Shown in pieces: positions 11,866 through 28,457 of a stretch of DNA of 38,469 nt (its first letter is position 1; the number at the start of each line of letters is the position of its first letter). The DNA lies in contig JAPPIX010000379.1 of NCBI GenBank assembly GCA_028820495.1, positions 1 through 38,469 on the forward strand, written 5' to 3'. The notes beneath the pieces are model-generated. The model saw only the letters and a list, made by a program, of their open reading frames with translations, was not told where the DNA came from and made no database searches. The translations under genes were made by a program, and so were the position numbers. Source of the DNA: Gammaproteobacteria bacterium (lineage in GTDB: Bacteria; Pseudomonadota; Gammaproteobacteria; Pseudomonadales; Azotimanducaceae).

Positions 11866-12500
11866 ACGACCGCTACGACACTACGGGCAGCATCGAAGCG
11901 CAGTTCGAGCCCGGTTCGAGCGGTGGTGTGCTGGCCAACAAGCTTGGCATCTCAGACCCACTGGAGATGAACGAGGTCGAACTCGATCTGTTGAATCGGC
12001 TCTACGAAGAGACATTCGACTCGGTTGCGGCCGACCAAGCCCTTACCGTCGCTGATATCACTGAATGGCATCGCCGCTGGCTGATCAATGTCTATGACTG
12101 GGCAGGTCGGTACCGTACTCTCAACATGGCCAAGGGAGATTTCCAGTTTGCGGCCACTGCTCAAATCGAGCGACTGATGGGCCATCTGGACAAGGAAATT
12201 CTGCCCATTCACACACCTTGCCAAGGCATGTCGGAAGAGAAGCTCATCGAAGCCATCGCTGTTGTCCACGTTGAACTGATACTGATTCATCCGTTTCGCG
12301 AAGGAAATGGCCGACTGTCGCGCCTGCTAGCCGATGTGATGGCAGTGCAGGCAGGTCGGCGTGAATTGGACTTCACTTCATGGGACGAACACAGGGACAA
12401 GTACTTCGCCTGCATTCAGGCAGGGATGAGCGACTATGAGCCGATGAAGGGACTTGTCAGCCTAGCGGCACGCGAGGCGGGGAATTGCGGAGTTGCCTGA
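11862..12500 (+). CDS. Fic domain protein (probable AMP-transferase)
   Basis: This 212-residue protein carries the complete Fic motif H-P-F-R-E-G-N-G-R at 143-151, with catalytic His143, Glu147 and Arg151. The conserved W-H-R-R-W-L-x-N-V-Y-x-W-A-G-R-Y-R segment lies earlier. Fic enzymes usually transfer AMP from ATP to a target protein. I see no inhibitory helix motif (S/T-x-x-x-E-G/N) inside this protein. That makes a separate antitoxin likely, and the convergent small gene just downstream is a candidate. The start overlaps the hsdS stop by 4 bp, so it is translated with the restriction genes. Confidence 0.92.
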   Translation: MNDRYDTTGSIEAQFEPGSSGGVLANKLGISDPLEMNEVELDLLNRLYEETFDSVAADQALTVADITEWHRRWLINVYDWAGRYRTLNMAKGDFQFAATAQIERLMGHLDKEILPIHTPCQGMSEEKLIEAIAVVHVELILIHPFREGNGRLSRLLADVMAVQAGRRELDFTSWDEHRDKYFACIQAGMSDYEPMKGLVSLAAREAGNCGVA

Positions 12501-12636
12501 GCTTGGCTTCAATGACTTGCACGGACTCGCCTGTCTCTATCGCCGTCGAACTGGCTACGCTTCGAATCCGCCGCCGCATCGCCTCCGGAGAGTTGCGCAA
12601 GTGAGGATTGGTCTCCGAGAGCGGTTTGCGTTTCAT
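12457..12636 (-). CDS. Small protein convergent with Fic, possible Fic antitoxin
   Basis: This 59-residue basic protein starts M-K-R-K-P-L-S-E-T-N-P-H-L-R and contains S-S-T-A-I-E-T-G-E-S-V. The S-x-x-x-E segment resembles the inhibitory helix (S/T-x-x-x-E-G/N) that blocks Fic active sites, although here Thr stands where Gly or Asn is usual. Its 3' end overlaps the Fic gene by 44 bp, tail to tail. The start at 12636 is chosen because a K-P-L-S-x-T-N-P start recurs, as I recall, in small proteins near Fic genes. The longer frame upstream is unconvincing. Function is inferred from motif and position only. Confidence 0.5.
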   Translation of the reverse strand: MKRKPLSETNPHLRNSPEAMRRRIRSVASSTAIETGESVQVIEAKLRQLRNSPPRVPLG

Positions 12637-12721
12637 GGCGTCATTGTAGCCGATTAGGGGTAGCCCCTGCCGATGGCGAGAAAGCGTTGGCCATTCCAAT
12701 TTCTGTGAACCCGGCACACGA

Positions 12722-12727
12722 TATACT
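12722..12727 (+). promoter_or_regulatory. Possible -10 box for the PIN pair
   Basis: TATACT (5 of 6 with the sigma70 consensus) lies 31 bp before the ATG at 12759. No good -35 box stands at the right distance. A strong ribosome site GAAGGAG follows at 12745-12751. Confidence 0.3.
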
Positions 12728-12758
12728 ACCCAGAGTTGAGCAGTGAAGGAGCGTTCTC

Positions 12759-13040
12759 ATGCAGGCGCGGGAAGCAGTCGAAGTCGCAAAGAAGCACGTC
12801 GCCGAGTTATTCGAGGCTGAACCCATCGGGGAAGTTGGCTTGGAGGAGATCGAACTTCGAGGCGACATGTGGTCCGTGACCATCGGCTTCACTAGAGACT
12901 GGCCCGTTTCGAGGGGCGTACTCAAGTCGCTTGGCGGTGCAGGGCGAACCTACAAAGTAGTGAGTATCGACGACAAGACGGGGTTGGTGCAGTCGCTGAG
13001 GCATCGAGAGGTATCCAGGGACGGCCCCAATGGTCAGTAG
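12759..13040 (+). CDS. Hypothetical protein upstream of PIN-domain gene
   Basis: This 93-residue protein has a helical, acidic first third, then probable beta strands (M-W-S-V-T-I-G-F; R-T-Y-K-V-V-S-I-D-D-K-T-G). The Y-K-V-V-x-I-D-x-x-T-G pattern is reminiscent of PepSY-like small folds, but I cannot assign a family. A GAAGGAG site stands 7 bp before the ATG. Its end overlaps the PIN gene by 11 bp, so the two are one operon. It may be the cognate antitoxin or partner of the PIN protein. No DNA-binding motif is visible, which is unusual for a VapB-type antitoxin. Confidence 0.75.
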   Translation: MQAREAVEVAKKHVAELFEAEPIGEVGLEEIELRGDMWSVTIGFTRDWPVSRGVLKSLGGAGRTYKVVSIDDKTGLVQSLRHREVSRDGPNGQ

Positions 13041-13497
13041 CGGAATCTACGTTGACGCGAACCTCTTGGTGCTGCTGGTGGTGGGCCTCACAGGGAAAGG
13101 CCTAATCGCCAAGCACCGGCGACTTCGCGAATACACCGTTGACGACTATGATCTCCTCTACCGATTTCTGAAGCGGTCGAGGCAAGTGTTTGTGACGCCC
13201 AACACGGTCACGGAAGCCTCGAACCTGCTCGCCTACCACGGCGAGCCGGAGCGGTCCGCCCTTATGAACGCGCTGGGCAAGCTGATTGAGGAGAGTCCTG
13301 AGACGGTGATTCCAAGCAAGGAGGCATCAAGCGACAGCCGGTTTATTCGGCTTGGGCTCACCGACGCCGCACTGCTACAGGCGGTGTCCCCGACAACGCC
13401 TCTCTTGACAGTGGACCTCGATCTGTTTCTGGCTGCGTCAGCCCAAAGCAGCGAAGCAGCAATCAATTTCAACCACCTCCGTTTTGCTGGCGCGTGA
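13030..13497 (+). CDS. PIN-domain protein (putative RNase)
   Basis: This 155-residue protein shows the acidic residues of PIN ribonucleases in order: Asp9 (Y-V-D-A-N-L-L), Glu62 (T-V-T-E-A-S-N-L-L), Asp112 (G-L-T-D-A-A-L-L) and Asp129/Asp131 (T-V-D-L-D-L). PIN proteins are Mg2+-dependent RNases, often the toxin of a pair. It overlaps the 93-residue gene by 11 bp. It is longer and less compact than a classic VapC, so it may be a different PIN group. Confidence 0.8.
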   Translation: MVSSGIYVDANLLVLLVVGLTGKGLIAKHRRLREYTVDDYDLLYRFLKRSRQVFVTPNTVTEASNLLAYHGEPERSALMNALGKLIEESPETVIPSKEASSDSRFIRLGLTDAALLQAVSPTTPLLTVDLDLFLAASAQSSEAAINFNHLRFAGA

Positions 13498-13563
13498 CTT
13501 TCCGGGCCGTGCGACACGCCTCGGGAAACAAGACCAGCAATTCGCAAACAGCGCCAAGTCAAA

Positions 13564-14508
13564 ATGACAGCGACACTTCCGATCAACATCGACAGCAGCC
13601 TCAGACGGCGCAACGTCGAGAGCGAGCGCGTCGAAATTCGCAGTTACAGCAACACGGTACAGACGCACGGCGAGGACGAGCGCGAACTGTTGGGACTGGC
13701 GGCCACAGTGCCCTTCGATGACCGCTATCACCCCAACGCCTCGCTTGCGGATCTCTCTCCCCTACTGATTCGTGCGCACCTCCAGGATGCCCGCAGCGAC
13801 CTCTTTCACGAGTTGCCCGGTCTGTCGATGGAAGCCTTGGCACGGCGCATGAACATCGTCGGGGGCCCTGATGAAGCCCTGTTTCCCAAGAACGTCGGCC
13901 TTCTGTTCTTCAACGACCGCCCCCATGAGTTCTTCCCGGCCACCCAGATCGACGTGATCTGGTTTCCAGACGGCCCCGATGGCGGCAATTTCGAGGAAAG
14001 GCAGTTTCGCGGGCCACTAGCGGCAATCCTGCGCGATGCAGTGAGCTACATCGATCGCAACTTGCTGAAACAGGCAGTCGTCAAACACCCCGACCGGCCC
14101 GAAGCCGATCGGTTCTGGAACTTTCCGCTGGCGGCAATTGAGGAGGCGCTGGGCAATGCCATCTACCACCGTTCCTACGAAGTGCGCGAGCCGGTGAAGG
14201 TGCGGATCACACCGGAAGAAATTGTGGTGTTGAGCTTTCCGGGCGCCGATCGCTCCATCCGAATGGCTGACCTGCTGCAAGGCCGGGCGGTGAGCCACCG
14301 CTACCGCAACCTGCGGATCGGCGAGTTCCTCAGGGAATTGGACTCGGCGAAAAGCCACTCGACCGGAGTGCCGAAGATATTGCGGGCGATGCGCAACAAT
14401 GGCTCGCCGCCGCCGAACTTCGAGACCGATGATGATCGCACTTGGTTTCTGGTCCGGTTGCCAGTGCATTCGGGGTTTCGTGGACAGCGGAAGGCAGCAT
14501 GGGATTGA
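13564..14508 (+). CDS. ATP-binding protein of the AlbA_2/RecG-like regulator family, lacking the AlbA domain
   Basis: This 314-residue protein has a normal C-terminal GHKL-like ATP-binding part (F-P-L-A-A-I-E-E-A-L-G-N-A-I-Y-H-R-S-Y) and the E-R-E-L-L-G-L-A-A-T-V-P-F-D-D-R linker of COG2865-type proteins. Its first about 26 residues (L-P-I-N-I-D-S-S-L, E-S-E-R-V-E) look like the true N-terminus of full-length relatives. These usually continue into an AlbA_2/Schlafen AAA_4 domain of about 110-130 residues. That domain is absent: after E-I-R the sequence jumps to S-N-T-V-Q-T-H-G-E-D-E-R-E-L-L. I infer an in-frame internal deletion near 13635-13650. Such genes often travel with type I restriction systems. 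Confidence 0.75.
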   Translation: MTATLPINIDSSLRRRNVESERVEIRSYSNTVQTHGEDERELLGLAATVPFDDRYHPNASLADLSPLLIRAHLQDARSDLFHELPGLSMEALARRMNIVGGPDEALFPKNVGLLFFNDRPHEFFPATQIDVIWFPDGPDGGNFEERQFRGPLAAILRDAVSYIDRNLLKQAVVKHPDRPEADRFWNFPLAAIEEALGNAIYHRSYEVREPVKVRITPEEIVVLSFPGADRSIRMADLLQGRAVSHRYRNLRIGEFLRELDSAKSHSTGVPKILRAMRNNGSPPPNFETDDDRTWFLVRLPVHSGFRGQRKAAWD

Positions 14509-14603
14509 AATGACTTTGCCGGACCAGCCGACCAGCACTAAACCGCGCTATCACCTTACGCCTACGGGGAGACCCTAATGCGACAGATCCGGGCATCTCG
14601 CCC

Positions 14604-15519
14604 ATGACCACCGCTTCCATCGTTTCCAGGGTGTGGAGCTTCTGCACCACGCTGCGCGACGACGGCGTGGGCTACGGCGACTACCTTGAGCAGCTCACCT
14701 ACCTGATCTTCCTCAAGATGGCGGACGAATACGCCAAGCCACCCTACAACCGCGATGTCGGCATCCCCGAGGGCCACGACTGGACCAGCCTCACCACCCG
14801 CCGGGGTGCCGCGCTTGAAGAGCACTACGTCGCCCTACTCCGCCACCTTGGCCAGCAGAAAGGGATGCTCGGCCAGGTTTTCGCCAAGGCGCAGAACAAG
14901 ATCACCGACCCAGCCAAGCTCTTCCGGCTGATCGACATGGTGGACGGCACCAACTGGGTGATGCTCGGCGCTGATGTGAAGGGCGACATCTACGAGGGGC
15001 TGCTGGAGCGCAACGCGGAGGATACGAAGTCCGGTGCGGGGCAGTACTTCACGCCCCGTGCTCTGATCCGCGCCATGGTGGCTTGCGTGCGCCCCGAACC
15101 CGGCAGGACCATCGCCGACCCCGCCTGCGGAACCGGCGGATTCTTCCTTGCTGCCCACGACTTCCTCGCCGACCCAGACATTTGGCCACTCGACAGGGAC
15201 CAGAAGGAGTTCCTGAAGCACTCAACCTTTGACCTACGCCCACCTTGAGGACTTCGTGGCGTGCTATAGGCCGGAAAACCGCCACGTCCGGGAACCGACT
15301 TGGAGCGGGGACACCCCGGACGGCCGATGGCGCGCCTATTCGCGCGAAGAGCTTCTACAGCGCGACAAGGCCAGCCTCGATGTGTTTTGGCTGAAGGATG
15401 CATCCATGACCGATCTGGAAAATCTGCCGGAACCAGACGTGCTGGCTGAGGAGATCGTTGAGAACTTGCGGTCGGCACTGGCTAGCTTTGAGACTGTTGT
15501 TGGTGGCCACCGTCGGTGA
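14604..15519 (+). pseudogene. hsdM: Type I restriction methyltransferase subunit M, internally deleted
   Basis: Residues 1-209 are a normal HsdM N-terminus (V-S-R-V-W-S-F-C-T-T-L-R-D-D-G-V-G-Y-G-D) with the AdoMet motif A-D-P-A-C-G-T-G-G-F-F at 171-181. After E-F-L-K-H-S-T-F the frame ends at 15248. The true HsdM C-terminus (P-L-T-Y-A-H-L-E-D-F-V-A-C-Y ... L-P-E-P-D-V-L-A-E-E-I) continues in another frame from about 15226 to 15519. Compared with the usual size of about 490-500 residues, about 190 residues are missing, including the catalytic N-P-P-F motif. The junction lies within 15221-15231. The product cannot methylate DNA as read. An assembly error is the alternative explanation. Confidence 0.85.
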
Positions 15520-15556: not shown

Positions 15557-16552
15557 TCACGCCGCTCTCCCAACAGCGCCCAAGATCCATCCCATTGATT
15601 CAGTTCCCACATGACAATCTGCTGCAAGCTCCACGATTTCCTTTGGCGACAGTGCGGATCCTCGGCCCTCCGGCCAATGTGTCGCAAGAATCAACAAGAA
15701 ATTACACGGCAAGAGAAACTCCGCCTCCAACTCTTTGGACAGGAACGGGACATCTGCCGTTTCAATTTCGTAACTGGGTCGAAGTTCCGCATGGACCAGT
15801 GCCTGCATCAAATGGAGTGTTAGTCTCGTGAACGCGATCAGCCTATACGAGTGCAGTGAGATCGCCTCTTCTCCGTCCAACGCCATACGGAACTGATCAT
15901 CCTGATCGTATGGACTCGGTGGCTCTTCGTGTCCATGAAATAGGTAGTCCCTGAATCCCTTGACCAACAATCCAGCTTTGCCTAGCCCAACGCTTTCAGC
16001 AGGCTTTCTTCCCATCCACTCCCAAATTTTGTGAACGTCTTGCGTTATGGATCGGCATGAGCCATACACTCGATCGATGATTTCCAAGTGCGCCCGCGGC
16101 ACACGACTAGCCAACGTTTCCCGATTCGCGGGGTTCCTACTCTTCATCAGCCGCCCGGCCTGCGAGTTATCCCGCACGGTCTCGTATGCGTTCCAGACGA
16201 AGCGGAAGCGCACAAGTGCAGACAGGTAGTCGTCGAGAATCTCACTTTGCTGTTGGTCGAAATCTGCCGCTTGCCCACAATATAGTCCCGCATCGTAGAG
16301 GTCAGCAGTTGACGCATCCGTTTGAACTCGACCAATGCAGGCTGCCGGAAACAGCAGGTTAGCCACGCCCGACCATTTGCACTTTCCGCCCAAAGCGCCT
16401 TCATGTTCAAATGTATCCAACAGCAGTCGCAAGCGCGCGCATAACGTCTGCAATGACACCATCCTGATCACTTCCCTCTCCATACTCAATGCAGGTTCGC
16501 CGCGCCCAAGGAAGACCATGTACAAGGGCGCTCCCAAACTAAGGCCGCGCAT
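15557..16552 (-). CDS. Hypothetical helical protein with HEPN-like R-x4-H motif
   Basis: This protein has up to 331 residues and is predicted mostly helical. I do not recognise a named family. It contains F-R-D-Y-L-F-H-G, that is Arg201-Asp202-x3-His206, which matches the R-(N/D/H)-x3-H catalytic motif of HEPN ribonucleases. A long amphipathic helix follows (S-Y-R-L-I-A-F-T-R-L-T-L-H-L-M-Q), as in HEPN folds. The gene follows the receiver protein by about 100 bp on the same strand and is the last gene of the phosphorothioation operon. The start is uncertain: ATGs at 16552, 16519, 16483 and 16462 are in frame, and 16483 or 16462 would remove a weak-looking N-terminus. HEPN assignment is a motif-level inference. 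Confidence 0.7.
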   Translation of the reverse strand: MRGLSLGAPLYMVFLGRGEPALSMEREVIRMVSLQTLCARLRLLLDTFEHEGALGGKCKWSGVANLLFPAACIGRVQTDASTADLYDAGLYCGQAADFDQQQSEILDDYLSALVRFRFVWNAYETVRDNSQAGRLMKSRNPANRETLASRVPRAHLEIIDRVYGSCRSITQDVHKIWEWMGRKPAESVGLGKAGLLVKGFRDYLFHGHEEPPSPYDQDDQFRMALDGEEAISLHSYRLIAFTRLTLHLMQALVHAELRPSYEIETADVPFLSKELEAEFLLPCNFLLILATHWPEGRGSALSPKEIVELAADCHVGTESMGWILGAVGRAA

Positions 16553-16652
16553 GCTGTAGAAAAACTAGACCTCGTCCCGGCCACCATTGCAAAGCACGAA
16601 AACGCCATCTCTCGGCAGAACGCGTCGCCAGACGACTGGCTTTAGCAGATGT

Positions 16653-18554
16653 TCAATTTATCCCTAGTGCTTTGTCCGAGACGTCAACCACAATTTCGAG
16701 CCAATTCTTGCCCTTTTTGCTGCCCACCGATACTCGCATCTTCGAAAAGCCCTCCCACGGCAAGACCAAGCCATCCCTCAACATCGCTACTCGAACTTTC
16801 GTGGAGCTCTTCAACCAGCTCTTGCGCAACTTTCGATCATCGCTCAGCAATTCACTGTCGTCTGTCTCATCTACTATCGCAACAAGCTCGCGGTAAAACC
16901 TTGATGTGAACAATGCACGTAGTCGCACGTCCTTCCCTCCTCGGGGCATAAAGACCTGCGCCCGGGGATCTGAAAGCCCTTCAAGTTCAACTACTCTGGC
17001 TTGGTTGTTCACGTCCTTTCTAATATAAACGGTCACTGGTGCAGCTACATCCACCGTTGGAGGAACCGCCAGCCCCACTCGCGAAAGGTCCGCCAAAGCC
17101 GCCTTCTGGACATTCTGTGCGGACATCGCCCGCATCGACCCCAAGTATGAGTACTCACCGCCCTCAACAACCAATCGGTCAAGATCGCTAAACTTGTGCG
17201 TCATCAAGTCCTTGTAGTCCCATTTGATCGCCTTAGGCGTGTTTTGCAAGATGAGTTCTCCGGCGAATACTTTGTCCTCGTCAAGCCCTCCTATCACACC
17301 GCCAATGGTCAATACACGATTCGCGCTAGGTCTATCGCCCCGGGGCACCAAGTCGCAATCCGGAGTGATGACCATCCGTACCTTCTTGTAATTGGAAGCG
17401 ACGAACAAATCGCCGAACGCGAATCTACTTCTCGCTCGGTTTTCTCTGGAGTTAAACCGCATCCTATGAAAGAACTCAGCGATCCGATTCGAAGGGCCTT
17501 GATGAGCCCCCTCAATCGCTTCTGTCAATCTCTTATCGTTTAGTCCCGAAAACGGGTCTGCGTTCCACTCGACCTCATCATCAACAACCGCCCGCAACGA
17601 CTCGCCGAGGAACCACTCCAAATAGTCAGCAAAGGGCTCTCCCTCCTCGTACAGTCGAAACCGCAGCAGATAGGCGAAGTCCTTTACGTCAAAGTTCCGC
17701 AATTCACGGTACAGCCTCTCAAGCCCCGATTGTGCTCCCTGTTTCCAGCAATTCAGCGCCGCTTCAAGTGTCTGCCCAAACTCGAAGCTACCGAAGGAAT
17801 CCATCAACACATCAGCCGCTTCGCCTGAAGCTATCAGATCTGCACACGAGCCTTTGATCCAATGCTTGTTGAGAAAACCGAAGCGAACTGCCGTAACGCG
17901 CCCTTCCAGACTCTCTCGGTAAGTTCTTGCTCCATATTCATTCACACTTTCCGTTGACATCAAAATCACCGCAGGATTCGCTTGTGGGTCGTCCTCCAGA
18001 ATCGACTTCAGCAAGCCGATAGATCGTTTTCTATCCCAGCTTTTCTGCGAACTCGTCTCCCTATCCGGCCTTGAGGGAGGGCTGAGGAGAAAGTCCATTA
18101 GTATCAGATGAGGTTTTAGTTCTCTATAGGCGTCGAGTGCTGATTCATTTCCTACGCAGCGGATTTTCGTTGTATCACCACATCGCCCTAATAGCTCGAC
18201 CACAGGCTGCAGTGCGTCAAGTGCCGCCCCTTTTACGGCTCCGAAAACCCCGCCCGGATCGACTTCAGACACCCGATTTTTCACGTACGCGACATAAAGC
18301 GAGGAGAGTGATTTCTGCACGAACTGGTCATCGGTGTCCTCCCCCGTTAGAGCCGAAACGGATGCTAAGCGCTCATCCTCCGTCAACTGATTCTCATCCA
18401 CATGCGACCGAAATTCGGCACCTTCGAGAAGATCGTACAGTTCCCCAGTATCGTAAGACTCCGGCGGATCATAGGCGTCGTCGATCACAAGAACTCTGTC
18501 GATAGAACTGGCATCGAAACTAGCAATAATTTGCGGTGTGTAGTTCACTGTCAT
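16653..18554 (-). CDS. Receiver-domain protein with expanded receiver and large unassigned C-terminus
   Basis: This 633-residue protein has an N-terminal receiver with the phosphorelay residues in order: Asp25-Asp26 (V-L-V-I-D-D), Asp154 (L-I-L-M-D-F) as phosphoacceptor, Ser200/Thr201 (L-M-S-T-E-S) and Lys230 (F-L-N-K). About 85 extra residues, acidic and helical, lie between the first strand and the Asp154 strand compared with a standard receiver. Residues 240-633 match no DNA-binding output domain I know. They contain V-I-T-P-D-C-D-L-V-P at 395-404, and similar T-P-x-C-D-L motifs occur, as I recall, in uncharacterised proteins. The ATG overlaps the kinase stop (TGATG), so it is the kinase's partner. 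A longer start at 18626 is unlikely because it would run 73 bp into the kinase gene. Confidence 0.85.
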   Translation of the reverse strand: MTVNYTPQIIASFDASSIDRVLVIDDAYDPPESYDTGELYDLLEGAEFRSHVDENQLTEDERLASVSALTGEDTDDQFVQKSLSSLYVAYVKNRVSEVDPGGVFGAVKGAALDALQPVVELLGRCGDTTKIRCVGNESALDAYRELKPHLILMDFLLSPPSRPDRETSSQKSWDRKRSIGLLKSILEDDPQANPAVILMSTESVNEYGARTYRESLEGRVTAVRFGFLNKHWIKGSCADLIASGEAADVLMDSFGSFEFGQTLEAALNCWKQGAQSGLERLYRELRNFDVKDFAYLLRFRLYEEGEPFADYLEWFLGESLRAVVDDEVEWNADPFSGLNDKRLTEAIEGAHQGPSNRIAEFFHRMRFNSRENRARSRFAFGDLFVASNYKKVRMVITPDCDLVPRGDRPSANRVLTIGGVIGGLDEDKVFAGELILQNTPKAIKWDYKDLMTHKFSDLDRLVVEGGEYSYLGSMRAMSAQNVQKAALADLSRVGLAVPPTVDVAAPVTVYIRKDVNNQARVVELEGLSDPRAQVFMPRGGKDVRLRALFTSRFYRELVAIVDETDDSELLSDDRKLRKSWLKSSTKVRVAMLRDGLVLPWEGFSKMRVSVGSKKGKNWLEIVVDVSDKALGIN

Positions 18555-20899
18555 CACATCTCCAGCACGAAGCCATTTATGCGATTTGTCCGGACCCGGC
18601 CCGACAATTCTGTATTCAATGACCATCCATGATATTCGGCCATATCGCGCGCTATGAATAACCCAAGACCCTTGCCCATGCCCGAAGGCTTAGTCGTAAC
18701 GAAGGGTTGAAAAATCCGCTCCTTGCGTGATGCTGCAACGCCAGGGCCATTATCTTGAACCGTCATCTGGCGCCGGTCTTCATCGACCTGTACTATTAGC
18801 TGCGGCATGAATCCATCCTCATATTCTGCCTGTCGCTTCAGCCAGTATGCAGCGTTAACTACCAAGTTTTCCAGAATCTGGATCACCATACCGCGCACCG
18901 CACGAACCGTGAATCCATACTCTGGGAGATCAAGCACCAGTTCTATGCCGTGCCGCGAGAATTCCCGTTCGTGATTGCTGAGCACCTCCCTGACCAGATC
19001 ACACAAATCGAAGCGCGTCTTCGTCTGACGCTTCTCGCCGGTCAACTCGTCGAACGCCGCCACCCGCTTGTGAAGCGTCTGTAACTGATCTTTTAGAGTA
19101 GAAACACTCGCTGGAGTCGCCCCTACCTCAGAAATCACATTCATAGTGTGCGAGACCGCCCGCTCAAGCTCATGAAAAACAAACTCGGTCATTAAGCCAA
19201 CGCCAGCTAAGTAAACGAACTGGTCACGATCTTCCGCAGATTGCTTTTCCACTTCGTCCAAGCGCTTCAGAACTTCAAGCGCTTCTTCCCGTAGATCTCT
19301 CGCCGTCGAAACGACTTCCTCAAGCACTTCCTCGTACTGCCCATCCAATGTGCCGCGCAGGTCAGATACAGCCTTCACCAAGGTTCCCTCGGCTCGGAGA
19401 ATCTGATTGTTCTCCAACTCCTCCTTTCGAAACTGCAATTTCTCCTGTTTATCGACCTCGTTGATGAAGTTGCGGAACTCTACCTGAACAATCCACATCA
19501 CCAGCCGTGTCAACGCATCGGACACCGGAGACTGGACCAAACCCTCACGATTGGTCTGCTCACTTAGGTGTCGGTGTGGCGTATCGATCCGAATCCGCCC
19601 AAAAACTTGCTGTCGGTTCAGCTTGAACCCCCCGGACCCGAACGCTTTCTTGTCCAAGGAAATCCAGTCATCGTCCGCGTCACCGAAAGGTAATACCCTG
19701 AACCCGTGACGGTATAGCATAGGTCCTCCCGACCACCTCGCAATCTGGGCACGCGACGCCGTAAGGGTGTCGGTCAGGCCCTCGATGCTGTCAACGATCC
19801 TACGGTTGTACCAGTAGATCTCTAGATCAAAGCCACCTAGCTTCACCAGCGCATCACGACTAATCGGTGTCTCTTCGAACGCCGCGTGTCCCCGTTTTGC
19901 CCGACGTTTTCGCGCAGTTCGACTGACCGTCATGACCTCCGATCCACGAGCTTCTATCGTCATCGCACGCTGCTTTTCCCTGTAGTCTACCTTCCCTTCA
20001 ATGACAGGATCCCCATCGTCAAAGCGGAACGTTGCACGACAGCTAGCGTGAGCGTGCTTCATCAACGCCTTCGGTATGGAAGGGATCATCACGCGTCCAC
20101 CATTATGTCTGGCTATCAGCAATCGATTTGCAAGTCCCACCTCGAACGGATCTATGAAACGGGCGATCTGTCCATCCAACAGCTCGTTGAATCTAACTCT
20201 GGTCCAGTCCGCGTTGAGGCCCCGAATGCGTATTGTGGTGCCGTGATCCTCCTTGTTGAGCTTTCTCCTTCCTCGTTCTGGAGCAATCTTGATGTCTTGT
20301 ACCAACATATCCTCTGAGTGCGAGAAGAGTCCCCAATCCACGTCCAATAAGTTCCAGTGCGGCTCTCCTTTCTTCGACGTTTCAACACTCAACAACTCAC
20401 CCAAGCGCATCGCTGACAATCGACCTATGCCCTTGTCACCCAGCTTCGTCGCCCCCTTCTCGTTCTGCCTACGACGATGTCGCGTACCAATGCGCAGATA
20501 GACATCGCGGAGATCATCCAAGGACATTCCCTCACCAGTATCCCTGATCACAATCGAGTTTAGTCGGGTATAGTGTGCATCCAGTTTGTCCTCATACGTA
20601 TCCACCTCCTTGGTCCGGTCCAATTCTGCCAAGCAGTCTTCGCACCGGCCGCTCTCGTCCGCCACCATCTTGCCACGGAGAAACGCTGTGACTTCGGACA
20701 ATGACTTTGTAGTCTCATGGAGTCGTCGAACCGCTTCACGATAGTCTGTGTAAGCTAACCTAGACCGAACGTTGATTTCGACCTTGGGCGACCCCGCGTC
20801 GACCGCGTTTTTGATCAGCTCGTAGAGCGCCACCTCATCGGTGCTGATGAGTTCCTTGCCAAGTTCCAGCAAGGTTCTCGCCTCGAACGAAAAGCTCAT
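18554..20899 (-). CDS. Histidine kinase with two GHKL ATPase modules
   Basis: This 781-residue soluble protein has two ATPase modules. The N-terminal one is Hsp90/MutL-like: Glu27 and Asn31 in E-L-I-K-N-A-V-D-A, D-T-G-E-G-M at 120-125, and G-D-K-G-I-G-R-L at 154-161. A 65-residue insert in it contains C-E-D-C (86, 89). After a coiled-coil-like stretch (about 480-560) comes a histidine kinase: H box F-H-E-L-E-R-A-V with His576, N box L-E-N-L-V-V-N-A-A at 677-685, D-N-G-P-G at 716-720, and G-M-G-K-G-L-G-L-F near 740-748. No transmembrane segment is visible. It starts 10 bp after sspD and overlaps the receiver gene by 1 bp, so it is built into the phosphorothioation operon. Confidence 0.9.
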   Translation of the reverse strand: MSFSFEARTLLELGKELISTDEVALYELIKNAVDAGSPKVEINVRSRLAYTDYREAVRRLHETTKSLSEVTAFLRGKMVADESGRCEDCLAELDRTKEVDTYEDKLDAHYTRLNSIVIRDTGEGMSLDDLRDVYLRIGTRHRRRQNEKGATKLGDKGIGRLSAMRLGELLSVETSKKGEPHWNLLDVDWGLFSHSEDMLVQDIKIAPERGRRKLNKEDHGTTIRIRGLNADWTRVRFNELLDGQIARFIDPFEVGLANRLLIARHNGGRVMIPSIPKALMKHAHASCRATFRFDDGDPVIEGKVDYREKQRAMTIEARGSEVMTVSRTARKRRAKRGHAAFEETPISRDALVKLGGFDLEIYWYNRRIVDSIEGLTDTLTASRAQIARWSGGPMLYRHGFRVLPFGDADDDWISLDKKAFGSGGFKLNRQQVFGRIRIDTPHRHLSEQTNREGLVQSPVSDALTRLVMWIVQVEFRNFINEVDKQEKLQFRKEELENNQILRAEGTLVKAVSDLRGTLDGQYEEVLEEVVSTARDLREEALEVLKRLDEVEKQSAEDRDQFVYLAGVGLMTEFVFHELERAVSHTMNVISEVGATPASVSTLKDQLQTLHKRVAAFDELTGEKRQTKTRFDLCDLVREVLSNHEREFSRHGIELVLDLPEYGFTVRAVRGMVIQILENLVVNAAYWLKRQAEYEDGFMPQLIVQVDEDRRQMTVQDNGPGVAASRKERIFQPFVTTKPSGMGKGLGLFIARDMAEYHGWSLNTELSGRVRTNRINGFVLEM

Positions 20900-20909
20900 C
20901 TAGTACGTC

Positions 20910-21707
20910 TCAGAGCGAACAAATCAGGCACCCGCTATCGTCCTCTTCGGGATCCTCATCACCGAAGACCTGGGCGAGTGTCAAATTTTCCCGTCTTTCC
21001 CGCTTTCGAGCCACTCGAAGTTCGTGCTCTCGCTTGATCGCATCCATGCGCTCCGGTTGCTCAAGCTCAGTCAAACTCTCCCGTTCGCTCCATGTGAACG
21101 TCGTTCCGGTTGGTTCGTAAGGCTTCTCGTACGCCTTCGCCTCTTCGAAAAGATCCGGATGTTCCTCTTTCAGACGCACCCACTCGATCTTCTGCTGGTA
21201 AAAGCAGAAAAAGCAACCAGACCGTGTCCTTCCCCACTGCGTATAGGGCGGAAGTCCTACGCCGGAACTGAGGAGAATTTCCTTGATGTCCGCCAATTTC
21301 AGCCCGTCCTCCTGGAACGGGTACACGGCCTTGATGTTCGGCTTGTGGCTGATGTAGCCACCACGATTCTCGTCCGCTCGCAGGCCGACGTAATTGATCA
21401 CCGAATCGTTCCCAACAAACTCCTCGAAGGGACGGAGCTTGAGCATCTTCGTACACCAGCGCCGGTGATTAGACGGAATCATGCCGCCATACACGTCGTA
21501 CCAGTGGTCAAACCCCAAGTCCGCGTTTAGCCGATGCACACACGTACCGAGATAGTCCTCAATCCGTTCTAGGTACTCGTAGGTTTCAGGTAGTTCCTTT
21601 CGGGTGTCAGAGAACACGTACTCCATCTCCGGCACTCGGTCGCGCATATAGATTGCAAGCGCTGCCGAGTCCTTGCCGCCAGATAGACTGAGGATATGTC
21701 GCGTCAC
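20910..21707 (-). CDS. sspD: SspD-like PAPS-reductase-family sulfur transferase (DNA phosphorothioation)
   Basis: This 265-residue protein has the ATP-pyrophosphatase PP-loop S-G-G-K-D-S at 9-14, the mark of PAPS reductase, DndC and SspD. Cysteines at 85 (R-W-C-T-K), 165 and 168 (S-G-C-F-F-C-F-Y) and a C-terminal C-L-I-C (260, 263) could hold an iron-sulfur cluster, as in DndC and SspD. In phosphorothioation it activates the DNA backbone and inserts sulfur received from the desulfurase. It overlaps the ATPase gene by 4 bp (ATGA), so tight coupling is expected. A plain sulfate-assimilation CysH is unlikely in this neighbourhood. Confidence 0.88.
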   Translation of the reverse strand: MTRHILSLSGGKDSAALAIYMRDRVPEMEYVFSDTRKELPETYEYLERIEDYLGTCVHRLNADLGFDHWYDVYGGMIPSNHRRWCTKMLKLRPFEEFVGNDSVINYVGLRADENRGGYISHKPNIKAVYPFQEDGLKLADIKEILLSSGVGLPPYTQWGRTRSGCFFCFYQQKIEWVRLKEEHPDLFEEAKAYEKPYEPTGTTFTWSERESLTELEQPERMDAIKREHELRVARKRERRENLTLAQVFGDEDPEEDDSGCLICSL

Positions 21708-24700
21708 TTCACATTCTCCTGCGTTTCCTTGTCCATCATCTCACCCAGCAGATTGACAAGCACGGCCTCCGGACTCTCCGTCTGGGCAAGCAATTTCCTT
21801 ATCCGTGCCTTTAGAGTACCCTCTTCCTCCGCCCCATCGCGCAGGAACAGGGAGCGCTCCCTTCCGTCAGAGGTCGATACGTGGATTGCCGTAATCGGGG
21901 CGACCCGCGCACTCGCCTCCCGGATCACCGCAAGGCGACGGGCCAGCTTCTGCGCCATGCCCCGCACCTCGAAGGCAAAGTGGTCGACCGACACGTCATC
22001 CCAGCTATTGAGCCGCTTGCCTACGATCACCCCGGCAACACTATCGATCCACGACTCGTCATCCACATCTTCCTTCAAAGCGCGGTCGACGAAGGCCCGC
22101 AGTTCCCTGCTCCCCAGTTCCAGCAGATGATCTCCGTAGTCCAAACGCATCTGTTTGCGCAGTTCGCCAAGCGAACGGGCTCCAAAGGCCTGCAGGATAC
22201 TCGCTGCGACTTGACTGCGCAGCGTTGGCAGCGCATCTCCGAGCTCCGTCAACGCCAAGTCCAACTGAAGCGTGTACTGCTCAACCTCAATGCCGTCGGC
22301 TCCCAAAGCTCCACACGCGCGCGGCAACTGATCGAGCAAGAGCTCAATCGGCTCCTTTGCTTTCTTTAGTACCGCACGAACGTCTTGCGCCACCTGACTC
22401 ACCGTCCTCGTACCCCGTGCGAACTCAGACAGCTGTCCCCACCACCGATACAGTGCCTCCACCATATCCTTAACATCGGTTCCCGGCCGATCGCCAGTCC
22501 AGATCGACAGCCCCTTGACTAAAGACCTGAGCACATGTTTGTCATCAACCGCCTCGATCTTGCGTAACGCGAAGTTCCGAGGCGACTTCGCGAGTCTCAT
22601 GAAGTGTGCTTGGGTGATCTCCGGCTGGAAGCTCCCTCGCTCCATCAGCGCAATGTCGTCCCGGTAGCGTAGCAGGTACGCGGCGATTAGCAGCACTGCG
22701 GGTCCCGCTCGCAATCCAATCGGCGGCTCCCCTAAGCCCGCGATCAAAGTATCCACTCCGACACTTTCGCCGACACTAGCCATGCCGGCGACCCGTTGCC
22801 ACGCCGGTTCCCAACCCAGAGGGTCGTCCAGTCCGGGGCTCCCGAACCGCTGACGGCTCCCCTCCGCCCTGTGAATATGCGACGCATGGAACATCGAAAG
22901 GTAGATGGTTCGCTCCGGCGGGGCACCGGACAAACCCAGAAACTTCCGCTCTTCCTCATCCAGCATTAGGCCCAACAGCCTCATTCTCGCGGCTGCGACG
23001 GCGCTTGACAGCTTGTCGCGGTTGATCAACTCATTGCGAAGAATCGGCGTCTTGTCGAATATCCGGTCACAAACATCACTCAGGAATCTGCTAAGCGCCA
23101 TTCGTGATCCGATCGGTACCAATTCACCCTCGTACAGCCATTCTACGCCCGGCTCATCCACATTCGCTTGGCCATAAGGAAGGAGCCGTCCCCGCAGCTC
23201 GTTCTCCAGATCCCGTATTCGGCGCTCGACTTCCGCTCTCGCGAAGTCGTCGATCCGCAGTTCACCACAGCTCTCCCGGACCCATCGCCAGCATACCAAG
23301 TCACGCGCGGTCGCTAGGTTTCCCGGTGCGATCGGCTGCACACGGACTACTGCGAGAGGCCCGAGCCGTTTGGCAATCTGTGCTGCTTCCTGTCTGGCCC
23401 GTTCTGGCTCTTCATCCGGATAGGTGGGCCGCACTACGACAAGACCATCGGTCCTGGAACCGGTTTCGCCAGCCCCTTCGCCGATTTGGACCGCGAAGCT
23501 GCGAAGCGTACCAGTGCGATGGTAATGCCTCTGCGCCACCATCGGTCGCAACGACATGACACGGGACAACTCCTCATCCAAGCGCCTCATCTCTGGAACT
23601 GCTGCCTTCGCCTTGTTCATCCATTGGTCCAAATCAACACTGCTATGCGACCACAGGCTCCAATCCGCCAACGACTCCCGCCGGCAAATCACGCCCCGCT
23701 TGGAGAGTTCGCCAAGCGCCTCACTCACTTCCTCCTGACCACAGCCCAGCAACCATGCAAGCGTGCCGACCTCCGCCGACAGACCAGGCACGGGCTCCAA
23801 GACCACGATCAGGCTCACGGCCTTGAGAACCCGCTGCACCTCGGCGGGCAAATTTCCACACAACAATGTGGCGTCCTGGCTCATTTCCCATCGTTTCTCA
23901 CGATCCCTGCTGTGAAATCGCAAAGATCCCTGTGACGCCAGATGGTCGTATACGTCATCTATTCGATACCAGTTCCCGCCCCCGTAACTCGTCCTATGCG
24001 CAAACTCTTGGTATCCGAACGGTTCGGAAGACTGCAAGAACGAGAATATCGACCGCTCGTTCTGCCCGAAGCGCCGCGAACACAACCAAAGGCACGCTAG
24101 TGCCCCCGGTTGAAACGGGTACAGGTGCTCGCCGACTGCCGCCAGATCGTCGCCCGGTAGGGCGAACAGTCCCCGCTTTCCCGCATCACGGTATTGTGAC
24201 CGTGCCTCGGTGCGGACTGCTGTCGTGTGCGCTCGCCGAGCGACCAGTGCTTCCGACAGGAGGTAGAGCAATTGTTCATGGTTCTCGTGAAAAGCGATCT
24301 CTTCGTAACGCTCCGAAGACCGCCTCCACTCCCCTTCGACCCAATCGCCGAGAGTTGCAACGTAGTCGCCAAACCTGTGGTGCAGGAAACCAACTACCCC
24401 CAGACCGCCAGTCCGCACTCCGCCGGCCTTCTCGGCCAATTGCTGAAACACCGATGGGTCTTCGCGGCCGGGACTGGACACTGCGAACTCCACGTACCGT
24501 CCCATCTCATCGATAAGTAGCAACAACGCGCGGCCACTCTCCTGATACAGCCTTTCCGAGCAACCAGCAAGAGAGTCTAAGACCGCTTTCGGATCACACT
24601 CGCCTGTCTCGGTGAGCCGGTCGACCTCTCGCTCCACAGAGATCGCTTGCATATCTCTCTCGCCGAATTCACTTCTCGCCAAGTCGCGCATCGCCATGGC

Positions 24701-25069
24701 CAAGTCCGCCGTCAGGCTAGCGCGCCGCCCTTCAAGTATCACTGGCCGATAGGCCGGCACCGCTCCCTCTCCGAGTAGTTCTCCCACAAGATTTGTCGCC
24801 GCCCCGCCTTCGGTGCCTTCTTGGATCAGGCGCGCCAGCAGCAGGCCGAACGACGACTTCCCCGAGCCATAAGGCCCCGTCACGCGAAACGCCCGCTGGG
24901 ACGACCCCATCGCTAGCCCAGCCACCACCCTCCGGAGGCCATCTCGAACCGAAGGCGTCAACACGTAGCCGTCAAGCGCTCTTGGATCGTCCAAATCGCG
25001 AAGAATGTCAACAGCCCGAACATAGCGTCGTCCGATCGCAATGCGATCTGCAATCAACTCCTTGGCCAT
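21704..25069 (-). CDS. sspC: SspC-like large P-loop ATPase
   Basis: This 1121-residue protein has Walker A G-P-Y-G-S-G-K-S at 65-72 and Walker B L-L-L-L-I-D-E-M at 182-189. The long remainder contains a winged-helix-like stretch near 430-480 and no recognised nuclease motif. Position and size fit SspC, the ATPase of the SspABCD phosphorothioation system. P-loop proteins of BREX (BrxC/PglY) are broadly similar in layout but do not occur with DUF4007 and a PAPS-reductase gene. ATG 25069 is preferred, and an in-frame GTG at 25078 would add three residues. The start overlaps the DUF4007 gene by 16 bp. Confidence 0.82.
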   Translation of the reverse strand: MAKELIADRIAIGRRYVRAVDILRDLDDPRALDGYVLTPSVRDGLRRVVAGLAMGSSQRAFRVTGPYGSGKSSFGLLLARLIQEGTEGGAATNLVGELLGEGAVPAYRPVILEGRRASLTADLAMAMRDLARSEFGERDMQAISVEREVDRLTETGECDPKAVLDSLAGCSERLYQESGRALLLLIDEMGRYVEFAVSSPGREDPSVFQQLAEKAGGVRTGGLGVVGFLHHRFGDYVATLGDWVEGEWRRSSERYEEIAFHENHEQLLYLLSEALVARRAHTTAVRTEARSQYRDAGKRGLFALPGDDLAAVGEHLYPFQPGALACLWLCSRRFGQNERSIFSFLQSSEPFGYQEFAHRTSYGGGNWYRIDDVYDHLASQGSLRFHSRDREKRWEMSQDATLLCGNLPAEVQRVLKAVSLIVVLEPVPGLSAEVGTLAWLLGCGQEEVSEALGELSKRGVICRRESLADWSLWSHSSVDLDQWMNKAKAAVPEMRRLDEELSRVMSLRPMVAQRHYHRTGTLRSFAVQIGEGAGETGSRTDGLVVVRPTYPDEEPERARQEAAQIAKRLGPLAVVRVQPIAPGNLATARDLVCWRWVRESCGELRIDDFARAEVERRIRDLENELRGRLLPYGQANVDEPGVEWLYEGELVPIGSRMALSRFLSDVCDRIFDKTPILRNELINRDKLSSAVAAARMRLLGLMLDEEERKFLGLSGAPPERTIYLSMFHASHIHRAEGSRQRFGSPGLDDPLGWEPAWQRVAGMASVGESVGVDTLIAGLGEPPIGLRAGPAVLLIAAYLLRYRDDIALMERGSFQPEITQAHFMRLAKSPRNFALRKIEAVDDKHVLRSLVKGLSIWTGDRPGTDVKDMVEALYRWWGQLSEFARGTRTVSQVAQDVRAVLKKAKEPIELLLDQLPRACGALGADGIEVEQYTLQLDLALTELGDALPTLRSQVAASILQAFGARSLGELRKQMRLDYGDHLLELGSRELRAFVDRALKEDVDDESWIDSVAGVIVGKRLNSWDDVSVDHFAFEVRGMAQKLARRLAVIREASARVAPITAIHVSTSDGRERSLFLRDGAEEEGTLKARIRKLLAQTESPEAVLVNLLGEMMDKETQENVK

Positions 25070-25992
25070 GCAACCCACTCAAGACGTTCCTTCGACTGCC
25101 CATTGCCAACCAAGTCCATGCCGCCGGTTCCGTCGCTACGCATCTGCATACCGGACAGTTCGCAGAGCTCCTCAAGACACACCAGCAAAGAGCCCTCGTC
25201 GAGCCGGAAGACCACTCCCGGCGAACGGCGGTCCACGAGAAGGCTCCTGATCGAGAGCGACCGGCTGCCCGGTGCCACACCCTGCCAGTAGTCACTCAAC
25301 GCAAACGCGAACGCTCCCACATCCAACTGAGGCTTGGGGCCTCGCTTCACGCTAATCTGCGTGTGCCCGTTAACCACCGCAGTTTCGATCAAGTGCAGCT
25401 CTTGGAATGGACACCCCGATGCATCCTCGCCCGGAGTCGCCGCGTCGAAGCGCGCCCAGTCGTAGGTTCGCAACAACATGTCCACATGCGCGGTAGCCGT
25501 TCTCCGAGTCACGGAACCCTTAGCCACCACTGCCCGATTACGGACCACATCGATCAGCCGATCTCGCGTAATCTGCGCGTCCTGCAGTTCAAGGAACGCA
25601 GTGACCCACGCCCCAAGCCCCCCGTGCGCTGTCACGATCCAGTGCAGCCGCCATAGAGATCCCGGATCCTCTAGGTACGGGTCGAGCCCACCTTCGACAC
25701 CAAGCAGTCGGTGTGCCAGCGCCGTATTCTTCGCCACACCACGTTTCACCTCCAGCAGCCCGAACACCTGTCCCCAAAACCGAATCGCCTTGACCATGTT
25801 CCTGCCGAGACCCAAAGCTAGAATGGCATGTTCGTCGTTCGCAAAGAGCCCTTTATCTTGCTGTACCGCCTCGTATAGCTTGGGTAGCCAACCATACCGA
25901 CAAGCGAACGACTCGTGGCCGGAGAAGACCCGCGCTTGGCCACCCAATAGGTTCCAGCCACCGCCGCCGCTCGCCCTTTCCGCCGCCTTCAC
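25054..25992 (-). CDS. sspB: SspB-like DUF4007 protein (DNA nickase of phosphorothioation)
   Basis: This 312-residue protein has the DUF4007 signature F-S-G-H-E-S-F-A-C-R-Y-G-W-L-P-K-L near residues 23-39, followed by a helical domain (L-A-L-G-L-G-R-N-M-V-K-A-I-R-F-W). In the SspABCD system the DUF4007 protein SspB nicks DNA and is needed for single-strand sulfur insertion. I chose GTG 25992, 1 bp after the desulfurase stop (TAG-A-GTG). The ATG at 26109 lies inside the desulfurase gene and adds no conserved sequence. The gene overlaps the ATPase gene by 16 bp. Confidence 0.88.
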   Translation of the reverse strand: MKAAERASGGGGWNLLGGQARVFSGHESFACRYGWLPKLYEAVQQDKGLFANDEHAILALGLGRNMVKAIRFWGQVFGLLEVKRGVAKNTALAHRLLGVEGGLDPYLEDPGSLWRLHWIVTAHGGLGAWVTAFLELQDAQITRDRLIDVVRNRAVVAKGSVTRRTATAHVDMLLRTYDWARFDAATPGEDASGCPFQELHLIETAVVNGHTQISVKRGPKPQLDVGAFAFALSDYWQGVAPGSRSLSIRSLLVDRRSPGVVFRLDEGSLLVCLEELCELSGMQMRSDGTGGMDLVGNGQSKERLEWVAWPRS

Positions 25993-25993
25993 T

Positions 25994-27127
25994 CTAGCGT
26001 CTCCGCAACCTCGCCACTGCCGCAGCAATCTTCTTTGCGGCCTCGCAAACCTCGCTCGACATTGTTCCTCTCCCGAACCCAAATCGCACGGCGCTCCCAA
26101 CACGATCATCGTCTAGGCCCATCGCCGTCAGCACCGCGGATGGTCCGACCGCCCCCGATGAACACGCCGAGCCAGTGGAGAGCGCGAGCGTGGGTAGTTG
26201 CGCCAGCAGCACCTCCGCCTCAACACCGTTAAAGCTCACGTTGAGGTTCTGCGCTACTCGCTCCTCGCGGCTCCCGTTGACCACATACGACACGTCGGCC
26301 TTGTCCAATTGCTTCAAAAACAAACTCGCCAGCTCCGCAGCCCGTTCCCCGTCCTTCTCACATTCCCGGACGGCCAGAGCGCAAGCTTTGCCAAAACCCA
26401 CGCAAAGCGGTGTTGGCAGTGTGCCGGGCCGCAGCCCCCTTTCTTGACCGCCTCCGCTCATGAGTGGCTTCAACAGCGATATGTCTTCCGGATGTGAACA
26501 AATAGCACCTATTCCAGGTGGGCCGTACATCTTGTGCGACGAAAGCGTCGCGAAGGTGATTCCGAAGCCCATATTGACTTTCACCCGACCGATCGCTTGT
26601 GCTGCGTCCGTATGCAGCCGCACTCCCTCGCTGACACACAATGCGCCAATGTCTTCAATCGGCTGAATTGTGCCAACCTCGTTGTTGACAGTCATGATCG
26701 ACGCCAATTCGACATCAGCGACTAGCTCGGAGAACGCATCGAGATCTACCACGCCGTCCTCGCCAACAGGCAGAGTCTCTACCACTGCGCGACCTTGCCG
26801 CTCACACTCCGCTGCGGTCTCGGCAACGCATGGGTGCTCTATCGCGCTAATCAACAAACGACTACCACCATTCGCCAAGCTACGTATAACGAGATTGGCT
26901 GCCTCGGTCGCACCAGCAGTAAACACAACACCCTTCGGATCACCATTCACCGCCTCGGCAACCTGCTCGCGCGCCAACTCGACCGCCGCCGCTGCTTCCT
27001 GTCCGAATGTGTGCTCGCTCGAATGTGGGTTCCCGGGGCGTCCCAGCCACGGCAACATGGCCTCCAAGACCCTTTCATCGAGTGGTGTGGTGGCCTGGTA
27101 GTCTAGGTATATGTTCGCCATCGTCAT
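25994..27127 (-). CDS. sspA: SspA-like cysteine desulfurase (IscS/DndA type)
   Basis: This is a 377-residue PLP enzyme that takes sulfur from cysteine as a protein persulfide. It carries Y-L-D-Y-Q-A-T-T-P, E-H-P-C with His98, the N-N-E-V-G-T motif at 148-153, PLP Lys199 in S-S-H-K-M-Y-G-P-P-G, and catalytic Cys322 in S-T-G-S-A-C-S-S-G. As first gene of the operon before DUF4007, ATPase and PP-loop genes it fits SspA, the sulfur donor for DNA phosphorothioation, rather than Fe-S assembly. ATG 27127 is preferred because GGAAG lies 6 bp upstream. ATGs at 27154 and 27121 are also in frame. Confidence 0.92.
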   Translation of the reverse strand: MTMANIYLDYQATTPLDERVLEAMLPWLGRPGNPHSSEHTFGQEAAAAVELAREQVAEAVNGDPKGVVFTAGATEAANLVIRSLANGGSRLLISAIEHPCVAETAAECERQGRAVVETLPVGEDGVVDLDAFSELVADVELASIMTVNNEVGTIQPIEDIGALCVSEGVRLHTDAAQAIGRVKVNMGFGITFATLSSHKMYGPPGIGAICSHPEDISLLKPLMSGGGQERGLRPGTLPTPLCVGFGKACALAVRECEKDGERAAELASLFLKQLDKADVSYVVNGSREERVAQNLNVSFNGVEAEVLLAQLPTLALSTGSACSSGAVGPSAVLTAMGLDDDRVGSAVRFGFGRGTMSSEVCEAAKKIAAAVARLRRR

Positions 27128-27154
27128 CGAGAGCTTCCATTCTTGGCTAGGCAT

Positions 27155-27497: not shown

Positions 27498-28457
27498 TTA
27501 AATCGCAGGCTCCGCCAAAAACACGCATCCCGGACACTCCCCCGCCGCCAAGTTAGCTTCCGCCGCCACCCGGTCGTCTTCACTTTGGTATTGCGGCGTG
27601 TCAAAACGCCCCACTCGATCATCCGCCGCTCCGCCGTCCGCGCGGGGCTTGGGGCGCATGGCGTGGTCCTTCCAGCCGTCGTCATCGCTCCAGCGATGCG
27701 GCAGGGTGATGATCTCGCCGGGTTGCCGGATAGTCTGGAAGGCGTCCAGGGCCTCGATCATGATTTGCCGCTGCAAAGCGGGGTCGTTCGGCTTGCCAGC
27801 AGTGCGTCCCAACGGGAAGTCCAAGTAGATGGCGCGGGGCGGATTGACGGATTGGGTGATGGAGTAGGCGCTTGATAGGCAAACGGTGGGCAGGCCACGG
27901 CTCTCAAGCTCCCGCGCAATCAGTCCAACGGACTGATGGCAGACGGGTCAGACCGGCACCAGTATGGCGAGATCGACCTCATCGCGCTGCAGCCGGTCAG
28001 CGATGGCGGGGGCCAGCGCATCGCGCACCTTGCGCACCGAGTAGATGCCGCCCATGAAGGTGTAGGCACATGCGCCCAAGCCGCCAATGCGGCCCTCGTC
28101 AACTAGGTTGCGCAGGGTTTCCAAGGGAAAGACCGCGTTGGGGTCGCGGCGGGCGTCGGTCAGGTCATAGGCGAAGTGGGTGGCGCGCAGTTCGCTGACC
28201 GGGGTGTCGGCGGGAATCTCGCGGAAGCTGAAATCGTCCCGGTAGTGGAACGCCACCTGGCCGCTTCGGTAGATGCCCCCCGACGCCACCAAGCCGACCA
28301 TTGCCTCGCCTAGAGGCTTGGCCAGCGGCGCAAACGGCGGCGGGTCTTCATTGCGCACCCACCGATACGGCGGATAGCCAAGCCTGTCGTACTGCTCACG
28401 GGTGCGGGCGATGTAGTCAACGGGGTTGGATGGCTCGCCAGCCTCAATCAAGCGCAT
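27498..28457 (-). CDS. PrdB/GrdB-family selenoprotein (in-frame UGA read as Sec)
   Basis: Two reading frames lie in the same phase and are separated only by TGA at 27950-27948. Read through, they give 319 residues with selenocysteine at 170 in V-P-V-U-P-V-C-H-Q-S-V-G-L-I-A-R-E-L-E, a U-x-x-C redox motif followed by a sequence typical of the glycine/betaine/D-proline reductase selenoprotein B family. Upstream residues (P-P-Y-R-W-V-R-N, F-H-Y-R-D-D-F-S-F-R-E) and downstream residues (I-Y-L-D-F-P-L-G-R) continue the family pattern, so this is one gene, not a broken one. A second C-P-G-C pair stands near the C-terminus. Proteobacterial members are probably redox enzymes of unknown substrate. SelA/B/C/D would have to be encoded elsewhere. 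Confidence 0.85.
27919..27937 (-). promoter_or_regulatory. bSECIS-like hairpin downstream of the UGA
   Basis: In the mRNA, 10 nt after the UGA, AUCAGUCC-GUU-GGACUGAU forms a perfect 8-bp stem with a 3-nt loop starting with G. The loop lies 18 nt from the UGA. Both agree with the bacterial SECIS model (small apical loop, G among its first two bases, 16-37 nt from UGA). It lies within coding sequence, as bSECIS elements do. Confidence 0.8.

Follow-up and report, generated by a model that had tools for sequence, protein, structure and literature searches.

The SspABCD DNA modification set is described in combination with two restriction modules, SspFGH and SspE (PMC8092258). In the available part of PMC8092258, 2,211 of 2,678 sspBCD modules (given there as 83.9%) have neither sspFGH nor sspE, and the existence of further sspBCD partners is left open. 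Here we describe a predicted histidine kinase-receiver pair that follows sspABCD in a Gammaproteobacteria bacterium. The window analyzed is a stretch of 38,469 nucleotides, contig JAPPIX010000379.1 or contig 76 (C76) of an assembly with 418 contigs, a length of 5.1 Mb and 90.9% completeness. It has the same modification set as both described systems.

Detocs is a two-component anti-phage system with genes DtcA-DtcB-DtcC. Type-4 BREX, as presented in the available part of PMC12839542, has SspB-, SspC- and SspD-like proteins in common with the window; its markers PglZ and BrxL had no match among the 9 locus proteins or 10 flanking open reading frames (ORFs). The available main text of PMC8092258 contains neither "histidine" nor "HATPase", and no SspFGH genes lie beside the ssp genes in the window. 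A kinase with ssp genes is likewise absent from the accessible parts of PMC10853773 and PMC12839542.

The closest descriptions are from Acinetobacter. PMC7464106 mentions a histidine kinase beside the Ssp genes and speculates on transcriptional control of SspE. PMC12421847 describes an Ssp system without a nuclease in A. baumannii clone 2, with a two-component system in the region, as a possible new variant. These were the only two remarks on a kinase with ssp in the literature covered, which was thin for subscription journals and preprints, and the initial annotation overstated the case in saying that no such system was described. As far as their available text goes, the two papers do not set out the domains of the kinase and name no genus besides Acinetobacter. 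The Acinetobacter kinase is homologous to that of the window (26.9% identity over the whole length), with the same phosphorelay residues; a partner gene adjoins it, and sspDCB is convergent. The relationship is very distant, the partner protein being 13% identical, and the fetched stretch contains no sspA. In one Acinetobacter record (L051, 8001-10315), the kinase frame is broken and the receiver and sspBCD are intact.

The ssp genes, the kinase and the receiver

Seven minus-strand ORFs run in series from 27154 down to 15557. This series and its spacings were claimed from the DNA letters at the outset; all of the ORFs exist, and the spacings agree when better start codons are used. The first gene, sspA (25994..27154, likely start 27127), encodes a cysteine desulfurase matching PADLOC SspA (6.3e-119) and PF00266. 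It is followed by sspB (25054..25992, GTG start 25992), a DUF4007 gene (PF13182, 3.3e-59; PADLOC SspB, 8.4e-75); sspC (21704..25069, ATG 25069), encoding a P-loop ATPase (PADLOC SspC, 3.6e-219); and sspD (20910..21707), encoding a PP-loop sulfur transferase (PF01507, 1.7e-12; PADLOC SspD, 4.8e-117). All four PADLOC E-values are 8.4e-75 or better, which bears out the earlier naming of these genes as SspA-D, and the four homologues form a predicted SspABCD set in one cluster. The translations carry SGGKDS (SspD), a P-loop (SspC) and a cysteine loop (SspA), which we take to be Ssp active sites. The kinase gene (18554..20899), the receiver gene (16653..18554) and a HEPN-like gene complete the series.

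The sspA stop and the sspB start are 1 bp apart, sspB and sspC overlap by 16 bp, and sspC and sspD overlap by 4 bp. The kinase gene begins 10 bp after sspD and overlaps the receiver gene by 1 bp (TGATG at 18554). A scan for promoters found 6 sites versus 5.0 in shuffled sequence, and a scan for terminators found 11 versus 11.0, no excess in either case, so it is only from gene spacing that we infer a single transcript.

The kinase is a predicted soluble protein of 781 residues with two ATPase modules. PF13589 matched the N-terminal part (3.8e-22) and PF02518 the C-terminal part (9.1e-19), both above cut-offs. A GHL-type ATPase occupies about residues 1-230, and the histidine kinase part contains H576 and an ATPase at about 630-781. 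Conservation was examined at 17 distinct loci, comprising the window, 4 genome-contig loci and 12 distinct plasmid loci. N-terminal ATPase residues E27, N31, D34, D120, G122, G124, G154, K156, G157 and G159 are invariant at all 17, as are H576, E577, N678, N682, D716, G718, G720, G744 and G746 in the histidine kinase part. The two ATPases thus look intact, as does the histidine that would accept the phosphate, and the kinase has the predicted H-box histidine and N, G1 and G2 boxes of a two-component protein.

In MutL- and MORC-like proteins, ATPases of the GHL type form clamps that close with ATP. The nearest NCBIfam model to the N-terminal ATPase is that of the BbrUII/HgiDII restriction enzymes (NF050001), which aligned to residues 111-247 at 1.8e-16 and 59.8 bits, far below its cut-off of 550. 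The ATPase regions are alike; here the region is fused to a histidine kinase. PADLOC matched the kinase to REase_II only.

The receiver protein has 633 residues. Its predicted structure contains a REC fold at about residues 15-259, with a helical insertion, followed by a C-terminal domain (257-633) that bears a TPxCDL motif. This domain includes a putative barrel at 373-494, for which the SH3-like barrel of the MazF/CcdB toxin superfamily is a candidate fold. Phosphorelay residues D26, D154 and K230 are invariant in 17/17 loci and supply the acidic pocket, acceptor aspartate and lysine of the fold.

Two-component systems usually regulate transcription, and the phosphorylated receiver could be an ordinary regulator of ssp and restriction genes. 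The pair does lie in or beside the ssp operon, both with and without SspFGH, and PMC7464106 speculated along these lines for Acinetobacter SspE. However, Pfam gave nothing for the receiver when relaxed to E 10, nor did PADLOC, so no helix-turn-helix was recognized. A fold search of the C-terminal part placed no DNA-binding domain among the leading matches, and at about 370 residues this part is larger than usual output domains. A protein-level effector or switch is tentatively preferred on these two grounds, the missing DNA-binding domain and the size of the output part, and transcriptional control is considered somewhat unlikely.

Linkage of the pair to ssp genes

The receiver, as sole query, identified 4 loci in genome contigs. 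Three have the exact order sspA-sspB-sspC-sspD-kinase-receiver (L004 and L006 from Gammaproteobacteria, L005 from Acidobacteria). At the fourth (L003, Bryobacterales), kinase, receiver and HEPN-like genes face the C-terminal part of SspH; sspABCD, sspF, sspG and the remainder of sspH are found elsewhere in its metagenome-assembled genome (MAG), on two further contigs. The split SspH and SspG suggest that L003 is joined to these contigs; a DNA overlap between the contig ends was looked for and none was found. The L003 kinase is 80% identical to that of the window, compared with 66% for SspD and 30-35% for SspA, SspB and SspC, so the pair appears to have acquired another ssp set as its partner there.

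The kinase, as sole query, matched 833 of 72,556 plasmid records; SspD-like matches occur in 78 of the 72,556. Coverage of at least 95% together with identity of at least 26.9% was reached in 16 records, every one of which carries a partner gene and ssp genes beside the kinase on the fetched stretch. Twelve of them are distinct loci, and the remaining 4 nearly duplicate others. The partner genes of L028 and L029 were missed by the receiver profile and were assigned by position and motif. Co-occurrence of the pair with ssp genes in unrelated genomes, the test that the initial annotation set for itself, was thus observed at 17/17 loci in Pseudomonadota, Acidobacteria and Chloroflexota.

The loci were placed in six arrangement classes of our own. 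The pair is colinear after sspD in six: the window, L004, L005, L006, Rhizobium leguminosarum (L018) and a Methylorubrum extorquens plasmid (L019). It is separated from sspD by sspFGH in four (L021, L024, L026, L027), convergent with sspD in three (L020, L028, L029) and ahead of sspABCD in two (L023, L025). One plasmid locus (L022) has the pair between sspC and sspD, and in L003 it faces SspH. A gene encoding TCAD9 (ternary complex associated) and phosphotransferase domains adjoins the receiver in L018 (16410-18002, minus strand). An annotated DNA adenine methylase gene overlaps the sspA start in L019 (5063-5767).

G+C content is 0.59-0.61 in sspABC and 0.52-0.55 in sspD, the kinase gene (0.53), the receiver gene (0.52) and the HEPN-like gene, with flanks of 0.61-0.66. 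The two halves of the operon may have separate histories. The low values of kinase and receiver relative to sspABC point to a separate origin, and the operon has type I restriction genes as neighbors, as expected if the two were generic defense-island passengers beside ssp by chance. That reading is already contradicted by ssp genes at every distinct locus and in 16/16 plasmid records, and by the insertion of the pair between sspC and sspD, and we regard it as highly improbable.

Distance matrices of kinase and receiver correlate at r 0.97, so the pair moves as a unit. The correlation is 0.60 for kinase and SspC, 0.53 for kinase and SspD, and 0.90 for SspC and SspD. None of 2,000 permutations reached the kinase-receiver, kinase-SspD or kinase-SspC values.

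The link between the pair and the ssp genes has limits. By these correlations, the pair appears more loosely tied to ssp than the ssp genes are to one another. Four remoter plasmid kinases (L045-L048; 22-29% identity in parts) have no annotated ssp genes nearby. Viewed from the ssp side, the pair is uncommon: DUF4007 occurs in 11/398 genomes of the window's phylum, and the kinase is present in 0/10 of the others, in 19-20 kb fetched. A second sspBCD of the same genome, on contig 103, has no kinase nearby. Among the ten best plasmid SspD matches, 8 are accompanied by the pair and 2 by SspFGH without the pair.

The receiver profile matched only the window's own genome among 398 genomes of its phylum. 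The kinase profile (E 1e-60) matched only L004 among 398 genomes of that locus's phylum, a weak prevalence search since 2 candidates were scored per genome. Phage records contained 11 kinase matches, one of them with 80% coverage of the query and 24% identity.

The second sspBCD (L030, 8644-16800) has neither kinase nor receiver; a HerA-type (DUF87) gene is downstream on the opposite strand. L045 and L046 are beside Dcm and Vsr genes and also encode a dual-GHKL kinase and a partner with an ACD motif. They differ in having shorter proteins, a kinase of 25-28% identity and a cytosine methyltransferase instead of ssp, and they hint at a wider tie of such kinases to DNA modification.

Restriction modules and the proposed response

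SspFGH genes were found in 8/17 loci (L003, L021, L022, L024, L025, L026, L027 and L028) using the L021 proteins, confirmed by PADLOC, as queries. At the other 9 loci, the SspG model matched nothing in the complete plasmid record or genome searched; for the window, this was a search of the 90.9% complete assembly with PDLC02799, one of four PADLOC SspG models. A transposase gene interrupts sspF in L026, so the SspFGH sets in kinase loci need not all work. GmrSD_N, the SspE-type domain, had 7 matches, above cut-off or weaker, elsewhere in the window's genome and none on C76. It was absent from 12/12 plasmid records, including the Acinetobacter record, and in genomes G000, G398, G399 and G400 it is on contigs other than that of the kinase. 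Contig 94 of G400, the genome of L006, bears another DUF4007 gene, and a GmrSD_N gene lies about 6 kb from it; the two may belong to an Ssp-SspE system of their own.

The pair had been proposed to take the place of SspE or SspFGH. This agrees with the window, where neither was found; as a general replacement for the restriction module it was rejected, with SspFGH also in 8/17 loci. With SspFGH in these 8 and no SspG match for the other 9, the pair does not strictly substitute for SspFGH, nor is it a companion of that module. The constant partner of the pair is the modification set.

A licensing role would have the phosphorylated receiver set the mode of SspBCD or SspFGH, either marking or restriction, with no effector activity of its own. 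It would suit SspBCD as constant partner in 17/17 loci (for L003, elsewhere in the MAG), against 8/17 for SspFGH, and a pair that can sit inside the ssp operon. Yet nothing known to license exists in the 9 loci with no SspG match in the record or genome and no GmrSD_N on the same contig or plasmid, and we judge licensing unlikely.

We favor a six-gene operon in which SspABCD marking is coupled to a predicted kinase-receiver phosphorelay that would raise an alarm against unmarked or invading DNA. What the sequence itself shows is the set of ssp genes, the two ATPase modules of the kinase, the phosphorelay histidine and aspartate, and a pairing with ssp that is conserved. SspABCD would mark the host DNA with phosphorothioate, and the N-terminal GHL ATPase would act as a sensor that reads DNA or the SspBCD complex. 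Its closure would drive autophosphorylation at H576 and then transfer to D154 of the receiver. The phosphorylated receiver would be the response arm, acting at the protein level through its C-terminal domain and not as an ordinary transcription factor. Where SspFGH is present, both responses would run side by side, and the HEPN-like gene, where it occurs, would add one more effector. Taken whole, this chain is as apt to hold as to fail.

A more specific version makes the pair a third response module besides SspE and SspFGH. In this version, the GHL clamp reads the backbone mark or its absence, and the phosphorelay fires a toxin-like receiver barrel resembling MazF or CcdB. We offer it tentatively and consider it doubtful in this detail.

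Neighboring genes and implications

The HEPN-like gene (15557..16552, minus strand; alternative start ATG 16519) follows the receiver after 100 bp. HEPN RNases have the motif pattern R-x4-6-H. The predicted protein contains it as R201 and H206 (R-x4-H), kept in 22/22 aligned rows, two being the window's own protein; 25 relatives were found in the database. No Pfam or PADLOC profile matched, and the gene follows the receiver in 2/17 loci (the window and L003), so it is treated as optional. Within the best 120 rows, 0/24 of the longest contigs of HEPN-like relatives were shared by size with the kinase or receiver lists, compared with 62/119 kinase contigs recurring in the receiver list and 0-3 in shifted controls. 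The gene was therefore rejected as a core part. The case for including it in the system, as initially annotated, is weak, and the suggested RNase output is conjectural, as is the sensing of modification state or phage attack.

Type I restriction genes face the operon on the plus strand (7610-15248). They comprise HsdR (7610-10360), HsdS (10357-11865) and a HATPase_c_4 gene (13564-14508). With them is an ORF of 214 residues (14604-15248) resembling HsdM, which looks truncated since it matches only the start of the N6_Mtase profile. A short minus-strand ORF just upstream of the operon (27948-28457) has a match to GRDB (6.4e-11) that is confined to the C-terminal part of the profile.

What this analysis adds is the spread of the pair over several phyla, its colinear arrangement with ssp in one operon, a kinase with two ATPases, phosphorelay sites that do not vary, occurrence independent of SspFGH, and a putative barrel in the receiver. 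Among the profiles used, only general ones for ATPases and kinases match the kinase and none matches the receiver, so surveys with these profiles would miss the pair. It occurs in harmless soil and plant-associated bacteria and symbiont-type MAGs of at least three phyla, and is a concrete candidate partner for part of the orphan sspBCD modules. The pair would connect a mark on the DNA backbone with a phosphorelay, with H576 and D154 as testable residues. If a third response module is correct, it would explain part of these orphans by a DNA mark wired to histidine-aspartate signaling.
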